Source: Myxococcota bacterium (GTDB lineage Bacteria > Myxococcota_A > UBA9160 > SMWR01). From it: a DNA stretch of 64,000 nucleotides. Shown here piece by piece: positions 22,586 to 34,723 of the stretch. The first letter of the stretch is position 1. Every line of letters starts with the position of its first letter. The notes below the pieces were generated by a model, which ran no database searches, had not been told where the DNA came from, and worked only from the letters and a program-made list of their open reading frames with translations. Where the stretch lies: positions 1-64,000 of the forward strand of contig JBCCEW010000029.1 of assembly GCA_039030075.1 (NCBI GenBank). The letters run 5' to 3'. A program made the position numbers and the translations under genes.

Positions 22586-22948
22586 ATGCGATCCACTCTC
22601 GTGAACCGACTCGTCCCGGCCGCGCTCTGCGCAGTCGTGCTGGCCCTGCCGACCGCGGGGCTCGGGGTCGACTACCTGCCCGAGCCGGAGCAGGCCGCGT
22701 GGGCCGAGCGACTCGCCGAGGCCCACGAGGCGATCGACGAGGCGAATCGGCGCGTGGAGAAGGCGCGCGCTGCGTACACGGAAGCGCGCCACGAGCGCCA
22801 TCCGCGGGGAGCGGCCCTGAAGGAAATCGAGACCGAGTTCCGGGACGCGCAGCGCGACGCAGCGGAAGCCCAGCGCGAATTCGACGCGCTGCTCGAACGG
22901 GCGCGCCCGGCGGGCGTGTTGCCCGAGGTTCTGAGGCCCTACCTCTGA
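22586..22948 (+). CDS. small exported coiled-coil protein
   Basis: A 120-residue protein with a signal peptide (about residues 1-27) and a long charged helix rich in Ala, Glu and Arg (about residues 35-105), predicted to be a coiled coil. The ATG has CAGGAG six bases upstream and the gene follows the previous one by 25 bases, probably in the same transcript. No family is recognised. A hairpin beyond its stop probably terminates it. Confidence 0.7.
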   Translation: MRSTLVNRLVPAALCAVVLALPTAGLGVDYLPEPEQAAWAERLAEAHEAIDEANRRVEKARAAYTEARHERHPRGAALKEIETEFRDAQRDAAEAQREFDALLERARPAGVLPEVLRPYL

Positions 22949-23048: not shown

Positions 23049-23336
23049 CTAGAGCTTCTCGTGTTCGGGGACCGTGTACCCCGCCTTGCCGAGCGCCCCG
23101 ATGATCGCGTCGAGGTTGGTCACCTCGTCATCGAAGGTGACAGTGAGCGTGTGTGCACTCATGTCGGTGCTCGCCGACTGCACTCCATCGACACCCTGTA
23201 CGGCCTCACGGGCCGCAGCAGAAGTGCTCCCTCACTTGACGCCAGGCGTCTCCAGTCGATACGACACGTCCCCGGCGAACGCCGGGCCTGCGAAGAGCAT
23301 CATCGCGAGGATGCTCATCGTGAATCGAGCCAGCAT
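23049..23336 (-). CDS. MerP-like heavy-metal protein, probable selenoprotein
   Basis: A 96-codon gene (95 residues if UGA is read as Sec). A signal peptide covers residues 1-21 and a heavy-metal-associated (HMA) domain follows. Codon 35 is UGA (23232-23234 on the plus strand). Against the MerP motif GMTCxxC the sequence reads G-V-K-U-G-S-T, so the UGA sits exactly at the first metal-binding Cys, and Thr38 replaces the second. The HMA sequence continues in frame to the end (AVQGVDGV, then HTLTVTFDDE and ALGKAGYTVP). A strong GAGGAGGG precedes the ATG. A hairpin 21 bases after the UGA resembles a bacterial SECIS. The gene lies 90 bases downstream of a hydrolase on the same strand. The alternative is a nonsense-mutated merP-like pseudogene, which the position and hairpin make less likely. 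Confidence 0.75.
23199..23217 (-). promoter_or_regulatory. bSECIS-like stem-loop in the MerP-like gene
   Basis: On the coding strand TGCGGCC-CGTGA-GGCCGTA folds into a seven-pair stem (one G-U pair) with a five-base loop. Beyond two mismatches, three further pairs extend it. The stem loop starts 21 bases after the UGA, and a G is the second loop base. Bacterial SECIS elements lie inside the gene directly after UGA, with a G at one of the first two loop positions. The geometry therefore fits Sec insertion by SelB. Confidence 0.65.
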
Positions 23337-23426
23337 GGTGACCCTCCTCGAGTGGATGTTGTCTCCAAGAGTATCGAACGCTGCAGCGATCGCCTTGAGA
23401 CCGCAGCCTGCGCTCGAACCGGCGCG

Positions 23427-30179: not shown

Positions 30180-31405
30180 TGGACGGGCGGCGGCGCAAGC
30201 ATATACTTCCCCTGTTGCTCCTCGGGGTTGGCGCGGTTCTGGTCGCGCTGCTTGTTGGCGTCCAGCCCAGTCCGAGTCGTACAGAGCCGGCGCCGATCTC
30301 TCCGCTCGTACGCGTTGTCGAGGCTATCCCCGAGACGATATCGCTACGCGTTCACGCACAGGGTACGGTCGTTCCGCGAACCGAAAGCGACCTGGTTCCC
30401 GAGGTGGCCGGGCGGGTCGAGTGGGTGTCTCCAGACCTCGTCTCCGGCGGCACCTTCGAGTCTGGCGAGCCGTTGGTTCGCATCGAGCGAGCCGACCATC
30501 AGGCAGAGCTCGAGAGTGCGCGCGCCGCGGTTGCCCGCACGCGCAGCGAGGCAAGCCGCGCCGCGAAGGAGCTGCGTCGCCAACGCACCCTCGCCGGTCG
30601 ATCCGTCACGAGTCAGGCGCGCATTGACGACGCCGAGAACGCAAGCCGAGTTGCCGACGCGCTGGCACTGGAGGCCAAGGCGAAGCTGGCGCGAGCCCAG
30701 CGCGATCTCGAGCGCACCGAGCTGCGTGCACCCTACACGGGGCGCGTGCGGGAAGAGAGCGTCGATCCCGGTCAGTTTGTGAATCGCGGCACCGCGATCG
30801 CGCGGCTGTACGCGGTCGACTATGCGGAGGTGCGCCTTCCGCTGCCCGACCGCGAGTTGGCCTACCTCGACGAGAGCGTTCTCCATGTCGTCCGTGGAGC
30901 CGATGGGCTTCGACCGCGCGCGACCCTCCGGGCGGAGTTTGCGGGTGGCTCGCACGAATGGCGTGGTGAGATCGTCCGTTCGGAGGGCGAGATCGACGCG
31001 CGCAGTCGGATGGTGCACATCGTCGCTCGGGTGGAGGACCCCTACGGTCTCGCCGCGGATCCCACGCTCGAGGCGCCGCCGCCGCTTGCAGTTGGGCTCT
31101 TCGTTGACGCAGAAATCGAGGGTCGCTCGATCGAGAACGCTTTCGTGTTGCCCCGTGAGGTGCTGCATGTCCACCGTGGCCAGGAAGGTCAGGTCTGGGT
31201 GGTCGACGCGGAAGATCGGATCCGAGTGCAAGATGTCGAGGTGCTGCGCACCGAACGAACCGACGTGGTGATCACGGCCGGTCTCGGCCGAGGCGACCGC
31301 GTACTGCGGACGCGCTTGCGAGCACCGATCGATGGGATGAGCGTGCGCGTCGCGAGCCCGGACACCGCTCCGAATCGAGAAGCGCTCGCGGAGCGGAAGC
31401 AATGA
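30179..31405 (+). CDS. RND periplasmic adaptor protein
   Basis: A 408-residue membrane fusion protein with one N-terminal membrane helix (about residues 9-27) instead of a lipobox. The lipoyl half VPEVAGRVEWVSPDLVSGG, an alpha hairpin, the second half RAPYTGRVREESVDPGQFV and a beta-barrel follow in order. The one-base overlap with tetR and the ATGA overlap with the RND gene show a tightly coupled operon. It bridges the RND protein at 31402 to a TolC channel encoded elsewhere. Confidence 0.92.
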   Translation: MDGRRRKHILPLLLLGVGAVLVALLVGVQPSPSRTEPAPISPLVRVVEAIPETISLRVHAQGTVVPRTESDLVPEVAGRVEWVSPDLVSGGTFESGEPLVRIERADHQAELESARAAVARTRSEASRAAKELRRQRTLAGRSVTSQARIDDAENASRVADALALEAKAKLARAQRDLERTELRAPYTGRVREESVDPGQFVNRGTAIARLYAVDYAEVRLPLPDRELAYLDESVLHVVRGADGLRPRATLRAEFAGGSHEWRGEIVRSEGEIDARSRMVHIVARVEDPYGLAADPTLEAPPPLAVGLFVDAEIEGRSIENAFVLPREVLHVHRGQEGQVWVVDAEDRIRVQDVEVLRTERTDVVITAGLGRGDRVLRTRLRAPIDGMSVRVASPDTAPNREALAERKQ

Positions 31406-34400
31406 CCCGGATCATCGCTTGGTGGGCGCGGAACCCTGTTGCGGCGAACCTGTTGATGTTCCTGATGCTGCTCGGAGGCCTCGCAAGCGTTCCAGCGATC
31501 GGCCAGAAATCCTTCCCTGACCTCGACCTCGAGCGCATCACGATCAGCGTGGAGTATCCAGGAGCGGCTCCCGAGGAGGTTGAGGAAGGCGTCTGCATCC
31601 GCATTGAGGAAGAGGTCCAGGGGCTCAACGGCGTCAAGAAGATCACATCGACGGCGACAGAGGGCCTCTGCGCCGTGACCGTCGAACTCTCTCGAGGATA
31701 TCCGGTCGATCGGGCGCTGAGCGACGTGAAGAACGCCGTTGACGGTATCGACGCCTTCCCCGACGAAACCGAGGAGCCGGTCATTCGCTACCTCGAGATC
31801 CAGAGGACTGCCGTGCAGATCGCGCTCTCCGGAGCGGCTTCGGAGCGATCGCTGAAGGTGTGGGGTGAGCGTCTACGCGATGGACTTTCTGCGCAGCCAG
31901 AGATCTCGCAGGTGGAGTTACAGAATGCCCGCGAGTACGAACTCGCCATCGAAGTCCCGGAGGCCTCGCTGCGCCGCCACGGCCTGAGCTTCGACCAGGT
32001 AGTGGCGGCGGTGCAGCGCGGGTCGCTCGATCTACCGGGGGGCGCGATCAAGACGGATTCTGGGGAAGTACTCCTACGCGCAAAAGGCCAGGCCTACACG
32101 GCCGAGGATTTCCAAGCGCTCGTGGTCATGACGCGCGCCGACGGAACGCGCCTTCGCCTGGGAGAAATCGCGAACGTGGTGGACGGGTTCGAGGACGAGG
32201 ACCGCTATGCCCGTTTCGATGGCGAGCCTTCTCTGATGATCCGCGTGGTACGGGTCGGCGACCAGAAGGTCATGGGCGTGGTCGAATCGGCCCAAAGCTT
32301 CCTCGGGCGCGAAGGTCCACGCCTACCGGAAGGCCTGAAAATGACGGTCTGGCGCGACGGGGCGAAGGAGCTCCGTGAGCGGCTCGACATCTTGTGGCGC
32401 AACGGACGCGCGGGCTTCGTCCTCGTGTTCCTGGTCTTGGCGCTCTTTCTGCAGTTTCGTTTGGCGATCTGGGTTTCGATCGGTGTTCCGGTCGCGATCG
32501 CCGGTTCACTCGTCCTCTTGCCGGCATCTGACATCTCCATCGACGTGATCTCGACCTTCGCCTTTATCATGGTGCTCGGCCTGTTGGTCGACGACGCGAT
32601 CGTCGTTGGTGAGAACGTCCACACCCATCAGGAGAACGAGGAAGATCCGTTGCAGGGCGCTGTAAGTGGCGCCCAGGAAGTGGCGGTCCCTGTGATCTTC
32701 GGCGTGTTGACGACGATGGTTGCATTCCTTCCGATGATTGCATCGCCCGGTTTGATGGGTCAGATCTTTGGGACGATCGGTATGGTGGTCATCTTCTGCC
32801 TGATCGGCTCCCTGGTCGAATCACAGTGGATTCTACCTGCGCACCTCGGTCACCACGGAGGGCGCGGCCTCTCCGACGCGCGATCTCGTCTCGGAATGCG
32901 CTGGAGGGGCATACAGCAGCGATTCTCGGGATGGCTCCGCAGGTTTACTCACGACCACTACGTGCCCGCACTCGATCGCGCGATCGAATGGCGCTACAGC
33001 GCAGCGGCGGGTGCGGCGGTTCTCCTGCTTCTCGCCTTTGCGCTTATCGGGACGGGGTGGGTCAAGTTCACTTTCTTCCCGGAGATCGAGTCCGACTACG
33101 TAACGGCCAGCGTCGCGATGCCGCAGGGGACTCCCGTCGACCTGACTGCTCGCGCGGTGGACTCGCTCGAGCGCTCGGCGATCGAGCTCAGCGAGCAACT
33201 GAACGCCGAATTCGGGGCGGACGAAAGCGATCCGCTGGTTCGGCATGTAATGGTCTCTGTCGGGGTGCAAAGTGCGGACGAGGGATCGCCTCGGGGAGCG
33301 AACGCGCCCACCGGCTCGCATCTCGGTGAGGTACAGATCGAGATCCTGAGCGGCGATCGCCGGCCGCTTTCCGCCAAGGAAATCGCGAATCGCTGGCGCG
33401 AGCTCACGCCGCCGATCCCCGGCGTCGAGGAGCTGTCCTACGCCGCCGATTACTTCGCGAAGGGCGACGAAATCGATGTCCAGTTGCAGTCGGAAAGCCT
33501 GGCGGACCTCCAGTCTGCCGCGACCTTACTCCGCCGCGAGTTGACCTCGTATCCGGGCGTCTACGACATCACCGATTCATTCAGGGCTGGCAAACAGGAG
33601 ATCAAGCTCAAAATTCTACCCTCCGCCGAGGCGCTCGGTCTGACGCTCGAGGACCTCGCTCGGCAGGTGAGACAGGCGTTCTATGGTCACGAGGCGCAGC
33701 GAGTTCAGCGGGGCCGTGACGACATCAAGGTCATGGTGCGATTTCCGAAGGATCAACGTCGCTCGTTGACCGATCTCTCGGAGCTTCGCATCCGAACGCC
33801 CGACGGCGCGGAGGTCCCGTTCGACAGCGTGGCGCGCGCCGAGATGGGCTCTGGCTTTGCCAGCATCAAGCGGGCCGATCGCAGTCGCGTGATCAACGTG
33901 ATGGCCGGTGTGAATGATCGGCTCGCCAACGCCAATGAGGTCCTTGCTTCACTCGAGGCCGAGTTCCTGCCGACGCTGGTCGGTGACTACCCCGGACTCT
34001 CGTTCTCCCTCGAGGGCGACGCAGCCGAACAAGGTGAGTCGGTGGCGGCGCTCGGACGCAACTACATCGTCGCCATGTTCGCGATCTACGCGTTGCTTGC
34101 CATCCCGCTCCGCTCGTACCTCCAGCCACTCATCATCATGGCGGTGATTCCTTTCGGTGTGGTGGGTGCCCTGCTCGGACATTTGCTAATGGGTGGCCTC
34201 GCGGGCGCACTGCCAGAGTGGATGACGGTGACGCGGGCCGTCGTCGGTTTCAGCATGATGTCGATCTTCGGAATCGTCGCCGCATCGGGTGTCGTCGTGA
34301 ACGCGAGCCTCGTCCTGACTCACTCGATCAATGGGCGACTCGGGGCAGGTTCCGCGCTTCGTGCCGCCGTGCGCGAGGCCGGCGTCACGCGCTTCCGGCC

Positions 34401-34671
34401 TGTGGTGCTGACGTCGATCACCACGTTCGTGGGTCTCGTACCGATGTTGCTTGAGGGAAGCTCGACCGCACAGTTCTTGATTCCGATGGCGTGCTCGCTT
34501 GCCTTCGGAACTCTGTTCTCTTCGGTGATCTCGCTGTTCCTTGTCCCCTGTGCCTACGTGATCGTCGATGACCTCCAAAAGGCCTACGCGACGACATGGG
34601 ACCGGCTTATGGGAATGGGGCCGCTTGGCCTGGCGGCAGGGGCGGACCCTCCTGAGGACCGGTTGCGCTAA
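31402..34671 (+). CDS. RND efflux pump inner-membrane protein
   Basis: A 1089-residue RND transporter, slightly longer than AcrB. The first helix follows RIIAWWARNPVAANLLMFLM, helix 4 has GLLVDDAIVVGENVH with the proton-relay aspartates, and the second half repeats the fold. It sits at the end of the tetR-adaptor-RND operon and is followed by a perfect hairpin. It is only distantly similar to the RND protein at 24973, so the two are not a recent duplication. Substrate range cannot be read from the sequence. Confidence 0.94.
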   Translation: MTRIIAWWARNPVAANLLMFLMLLGGLASVPAIGQKSFPDLDLERITISVEYPGAAPEEVEEGVCIRIEEEVQGLNGVKKITSTATEGLCAVTVELSRGYPVDRALSDVKNAVDGIDAFPDETEEPVIRYLEIQRTAVQIALSGAASERSLKVWGERLRDGLSAQPEISQVELQNAREYELAIEVPEASLRRHGLSFDQVVAAVQRGSLDLPGGAIKTDSGEVLLRAKGQAYTAEDFQALVVMTRADGTRLRLGEIANVVDGFEDEDRYARFDGEPSLMIRVVRVGDQKVMGVVESAQSFLGREGPRLPEGLKMTVWRDGAKELRERLDILWRNGRAGFVLVFLVLALFLQFRLAIWVSIGVPVAIAGSLVLLPASDISIDVISTFAFIMVLGLLVDDAIVVGENVHTHQENEEDPLQGAVSGAQEVAVPVIFGVLTTMVAFLPMIASPGLMGQIFGTIGMVVIFCLIGSLVESQWILPAHLGHHGGRGLSDARSRLGMRWRGIQQRFSGWLRRFTHDHYVPALDRAIEWRYSAAAGAAVLLLLAFALIGTGWVKFTFFPEIESDYVTASVAMPQGTPVDLTARAVDSLERSAIELSEQLNAEFGADESDPLVRHVMVSVGVQSADEGSPRGANAPTGSHLGEVQIEILSGDRRPLSAKEIANRWRELTPPIPGVEELSYAADYFAKGDEIDVQLQSESLADLQSAATLLRRELTSYPGVYDITDSFRAGKQEIKLKILPSAEALGLTLEDLARQVRQAFYGHEAQRVQRGRDDIKVMVRFPKDQRRSLTDLSELRIRTPDGAEVPFDSVARAEMGSGFASIKRADRSRVINVMAGVNDRLANANEVLASLEAEFLPTLVGDYPGLSFSLEGDAAEQGESVAALGRNYIVAMFAIYALLAIPLRSYLQPLIIMAVIPFGVVGALLGHLLMGGLAGALPEWMTVTRAVVGFSMMSIFGIVAASGVVVNASLVLTHSINGRLGAGSALRAAVREAGVTRFRPVVLTSITTFVGLVPMLLEGSSTAQFLIPMACSLAFGTLFSSVISLFLVPCAYVIVDDLQKAYATTWDRLMGMGPLGLAAGADPPEDRLR

Positions 34672-34723
34672 GGAGGGTTCGACACGTTCGCGTGCCTCGT
34701 CTTGCATTGATCAAGAAAGAAGA

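Follow-up and report, generated by a model that had tools for sequence, protein, structure and literature searches.

Does an in-frame UGA in a short reading frame for a heavy-metal-associated (HMA) protein mark a disabled gene or a site of selenocysteine (Sec) insertion, and, if Sec is inserted, what would it do there? We addressed this question for a locus in a stretch of 64,000 nucleotides (the window) that had been predicted to encode a selenocysteine heavy-metal protein. Our analysis points to a true Sec-containing HMA protein of a UxxT family, acting in the periplasm (probability about 0.82). The original prediction is thereby supported, and nothing that it had named as speaking against this reading was found.

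A UGA codon occupies the first metal-binding position of an HMA domain

The gene lies where it was predicted, at 23049–23336, on the minus strand, which the prediction had left unstated; the features of the gene described below are all on this strand. Translation of 23336–23049 with TGA read as U yields MLARFTMSILAMMLFAGPAFAGDVSYRLETPGVK-U-GSTSAAAREAVQGVDGVQSASTDMSAHTLTVTFDDEVTNLDAIIGALGKAGYTVPEHEKL, a protein of 95 residues including Sec that ends at a TAG stop (23051–23049). The strong ribosome binding site noted earlier is confirmed as AGGAGG (23343–23348), 6 nt upstream of the ATG. The protein begins with a putative signal peptide, MLARFTMSILAMMLFAGPAFA (23274–23336), with AxA-type cleavage judged by eye; homologues align with similar hydrophobic N-termini, and this signal would direct the protein to the periplasm. 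An HMA domain follows (Pfam PF00403, residues 31–88, 47.1 bits against a gathering cut-off of 24.8). As predicted, the sole interruption of signal peptide and domain is the UGA at codon 35 (23232–23234), the candidate Sec codon.

In a profile alignment to CopA HMA domains, U coincides with the first Cys of GMTCAAC and Thr with the second, in agreement with the claim, originally made by comparison with MerP, that UGA stands for the first Cys and Thr for the second. The Thr38 codon (23223–23225) is replaced by Ser in a minority of homologues. In place of the CxxC metal site of HMA domains (PF00403), the family has UxxT/S, or CxxT/S in its Cys forms, and alignments of UxxT family members show no Cys in the mature sequences except one that replaces Sec. 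Met59 and His62 are conserved across these alignments as well, within the segment Met59-Ser-Ala-His62 (23151–23162), which the structural model places in the β2–β3 turn. This AlphaFold model, built from the gene and 11 homologues (pLDDT 80.9), has the order β-α-β-β-α-β, and its best PDB match is MerP 1osd (TM 0.89 by target). Model and profiles together indicate an HMA fold, nearest to MerP, CopZ and CopA and not to thioredoxin.

The UGA is shared by a family and followed by a constrained reading frame

Searching 80 genomes of one order, we found 21 family members, counting the gene studied here. A single TGA occupies the identical column in 19 of them (19 genes in 19 genomes, its own included), and the other two have Cys there. 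The UGA forms mostly read TPGV[V/K/T]-U-GG[T/S], with single deviations (PGIV, U-QGT, U-GAS and, in the gene itself, U-GST). The original prediction had called a UxxT site chemically unusual; it does differ from CxxC, but it is no peculiarity of one copy, since UxxT is the normal state of the family. The two Cys homologues carry CGGT and CSGS rather than CxxC.

The predicted continuation of the HMA frame past UGA is borne out by purifying selection downstream of the codon: dN/dS is 0.16–0.20 for the three closest relatives (about 0.17 against homologue L040) and 0.16–0.32 over all six computable pairs, the closest homologue sharing ~81% identity with the protein. That UGA-35 arose in an otherwise ordinary MerP homologue by nonsense mutation or assembly error, for which one base change from UGU or UGC would suffice and which would fit the split that standard gene calling would make, is scarcely credible and refuted in practice, given 18 further UGA homologues in divergent genomes, the constraint that persists past UGA and the Sec machinery in the genome; the original prediction had held that a UGA confined to this copy would favour such a mutation.

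The family appears to be restricted in distribution. Neither a search of the whole class nor a sample of 379 genomes from the phylum returned a member beyond the order. One CxxC MerP-like protein from outside the order also came up in these searches; it is ordinary, and the TGA listed for it is its own stop codon. The viral contigs searched contained no relatives, and among the plasmid matches listed there were just ordinary MerP or cation-transporter proteins, at no more than about 35% identity. In a scan of named genomes the family occurred in metagenome-assembled genomes alone; most of these are labelled Deltaproteobacteria or Myxococcota, the exceptions being one Spirochaeta and one uncultured proteobacterium. 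The patchy distribution of the gene suggests transfer or repeated loss. We also observed that a genome of the same genus (G001) lacks the gene and that the closest homologues belong to another family of the order (G000, G001, G046, G062).

One Cys homologue (L035 in genome G005, C512:1676–1954) has TGT where the UGA forms have TGA, and it retains the GGCCCGTGAGGCC core of the hairpin described below; the G005 genome still encodes SelB. The other (L050 in G032), with CSGS, has no hairpin. The first is best read as an apparent recent Sec-to-Cys change with a relic hairpin, which would record the switch. Because the family tree is mostly unresolved, the direction of change rests on this relic.

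The genome encodes a complete Sec machinery

All four genes that the original prediction had singled out for a look-up are present in the genome: SelA (517 bits), SelB (322.6 bits), SelD (271 bits) and tRNA-Sec (selC, 69.7 bits, anticodon UCA). SelB also exceeded its cut-off in 18 of the 19 genomes with a UGA gene, the exception being an assembly that is 76% complete; SelB occurs in 63 of the 80 genomes of the order, so its co-occurrence with the UGA gene is not discriminating. To judge from the genome sequence, both a Sec machinery and a hairpin element are in place, and UGA-35 would be decoded by SelB and tRNA-Sec(UCA) with the hairpin 21 nt downstream as guide.

General recoding or suppression, by which UGA would be read as Trp or some other residue instead of Sec, is barely plausible: the frame would be open whatever sense residue UGA encodes, but the UGA column has Cys in homologues and never Trp, TGA terminates another reading frame of the window (22586–22948), tRNA-Sec(UCA) and SelB are encoded in the genome, and the hairpin core is kept in the UGA forms and the one recent Cys form and absent from the other Cys form.

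Elsewhere in the genome we observed 12 AhpC/TSA-type places and one SelW-like place, each with a single in-frame TGA (G000, L104–L128; C16:80649, C41:5283, C12:112134, C37:6570, C3:141025, C9:149983, C17:101761, C36:33926, C6:137145, C17:101091, C20:50659, C9:162423 and C8:159980). In most of these 13 places the TGA falls at an active-site position (Prx, UxxC Prx-like, GPX-like UGLT or CxxU SelW-like), and hairpins lie downstream of TGA in the AhpC/TSA and SelW-like places; one Prx gene (L105) has the identical CGUGA loop at an equal distance from its TGA. From the active-site TGAs in Prx, GPX-like and SelW-like genes, Sec use in this genome appears to be widespread.

Conservation across genomes marks the hairpin as a bSECIS element

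The hairpin reported in the original prediction, 21 nt past UGA with G as second loop base, is a putative bSECIS element, UGCGGCC-CGUGA-GGCCGUA (23199–23217), with a 7-bp stem and a 5-nt loop (23210–23206). Published bSECIS rules call for a loop of 3–9 nt with G in its first two bases, a stem of 4–16 bp, a distance of 16–37 nt from UGA and a minimum free energy of at most −7.5 (PMC13188914). With 7 bp, a CGUGA loop 21 nt after UGA and −10.7 kcal/mol, this hairpin conforms to all of them. The energy was rejected as proof of Sec, because 8–11% of random stretches from the G+C-rich window pass the same rules and the folding z-score of the hairpin is just −1.1. A single hairpin is weak evidence, and its significance, judging by the aligned genes, comes from conservation across genomes.

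This conservation is extensive. A core of GGCC-CGUG[A/C]-GGCC lies 3' of UGA in all 19 UGA genes, throughout which GGCCCGUG and GGCC are identical, and the free fold of the 21-nt hairpin in these forms ranges from −6.7 to −14.8 kcal/mol. At the codon level, Ala GCC (+7), Arg CGT (+8) and Ala GCC (+10) are invariant in 19/19, and codon +9 (pattern G[CA]G) is GCG in each of the 13 genes that have Ala there. Other four- or six-fold degenerate columns (n ≥ 10) reach a codon sharing of about 0.67 at most; since control and test share both sequences and tree, relatedness fails to explain the invariance. The stem is less uniform: one inner position is mismatched in 9 homologues, and about half of the homologues fail a strict perfect-stem test. 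Covariation, which the original prediction had asked of the hairpin, scored 0.142 against 0.071 in shuffles, with 0 of 500 shuffles as high; it is limited in extent and lies in flanking pairs outside the core (G-C, U-A and A-U at one pair), the core itself being invariant at synonymous sites. Three further exact GGCCCGTGNGGCC matches occur in the genome, none with a properly placed in-frame UGA in a gene.

It is very improbable that these patterns reflect protein or codon constraint, with Sec insertion relying on something else. Conservation of the AR[A/E]A motif extends to the protein level, but all 19 genes use identical Ala, Arg and Ala codons here while Ala codons elsewhere in those genes vary freely, and the Cys homologue L050 retains the Ala residues without the hairpin.

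The selenolate may serve as a soft-metal ligand

Because the second Cys position is Thr or Ser and no other Cys is present, Sec35, with its selenolate in the HMA metal loop, would provide the mature protein with its only thiol-like nucleophile. We favour soft-metal capture over selenol redox chemistry as its function; this is the most likely of the functions considered, with somewhat better than even odds, and a metal role taken by itself is roughly an even call. A soft metal ion, for example Hg(II), Ag(I) or Cu(I), would be captured or handed on, with one selenolate plus Met59 and His62 of the adjacent turn as ligands, or with two molecules sharing one metal. Known fold topology would put Met59 and His62 at the metal-loop end of the fold, and they are possible accessory ligands. 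We tentatively propose, at slightly less than even odds, a one-selenolate soft-metal chaperone, that is, a mature HMA protein free of thiols in which Sec together with Met/His or a second molecule replaces the two-cysteine site. None of the sources covered describes one-selenolate ligand chemistry in an HMA protein.

The main alternative is a real selenoprotein that acts as a periplasmic selenol redox enzyme, or as a peroxide or disulfide reductant, through a UxxT/S motif like that of GPX and OsmC-like proteins; we regard it as possible, though clearly the less probable function. UxxT is given as a redox motif in those selenoproteins (PMC1088965, PMC13188914), and the second Cys is lost family-wide, the CGGT and CSGS forms included. 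A metallochaperone would not usually lack its second ligand, and such a loss is equally compatible with redox chemistry. Against a redox enzyme, the fold is that of HMA proteins, closest to MerP, CopZ and CopA rather than thioredoxin, and the conserved Met59 and His62, placed by topology at the metal-loop end, could serve as soft ligands.

Gene context does not decide between metal and redox roles. The genes examined around the locus encode Usp, alpha/beta hydrolase, GST and RND/HlyD proteins; the lack of metal-resistance or mer genes among them agrees with a redox role, and homologues share no neighbourhood beyond close relatives. Within the window, a tRNA-Arg(CCT) (34618–34698) overlaps the 3' end of an RND pump frame (31402–34671) on the same strand.

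If Sec does bind metal here, selenium would coordinate a soft metal directly in a carrier protein, a task unlike its usual part in redox catalysis. Selenium binds mercury very tightly, and a metal-binding Sec would therefore bear on mercury handling by bacteria of the Myxococcota/Deltaproteobacteria type. Selenoprotein genes are prone to mis-annotation.

Comparison with known systems

MerP (TIGR02052; PDB 1osd, 1afi) is likewise exported and comparable in length, shares the HMA fold and has its first Cys aligned with U; the protein described here, however, has UxxT for CxxC, lacks mer genes among the neighbours examined and scores 49.6 bits against the model's cut-off of 92.55. It falls below the cut-off of every NCBIfam model that it matched, MerP included. 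The UxxU metal-binding (seleno)protein of NF041115, a type called 'putative mercuric reductase' in PMC13188914, also has Sec in the metal motif of an HMA-type domain, but with two Sec rather than one Sec and Thr (32.9 bits against 95). The MerT/CopZ fusion-like selenoprotein of NF045683 has a CopZ/HMA-type part that our protein matches at E 6e-8, in a 235-position MerT fusion, whereas ours stands free as a single domain (32.4 bits against a cut-off of 375). GPX and OsmC-like UxxT selenoproteins have equal Sec-x-x-Thr spacing in unrelated folds (PMC13188914).

The GOS ocean metagenome yielded two sequences of a 'Mercuric transport protein MerP' selenoprotein and no Cys homologues (PMC2398784, Table 2). 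Compared by its description, in which the Sec motif is not given, it is a Sec-containing MerP as well and might belong to the same family as the UxxT protein. With these published proteins (PMC2398784, PMC13188914; NF041115, NF045683), an HMA/MerP selenoprotein as such is not unprecedented. A 2026 inventory recognizes 119 prokaryotic selenoprotein families and subfamilies, counts distinct Sec motifs as separate subfamilies, and does not include a UxxT HMA form among its entries (PMC13188914). To the HMA selenoproteins already known as UxxU, MerT/CopZ fusion and ocean MerP forms, the UxxT/S protein apparently adds an unlisted variant.
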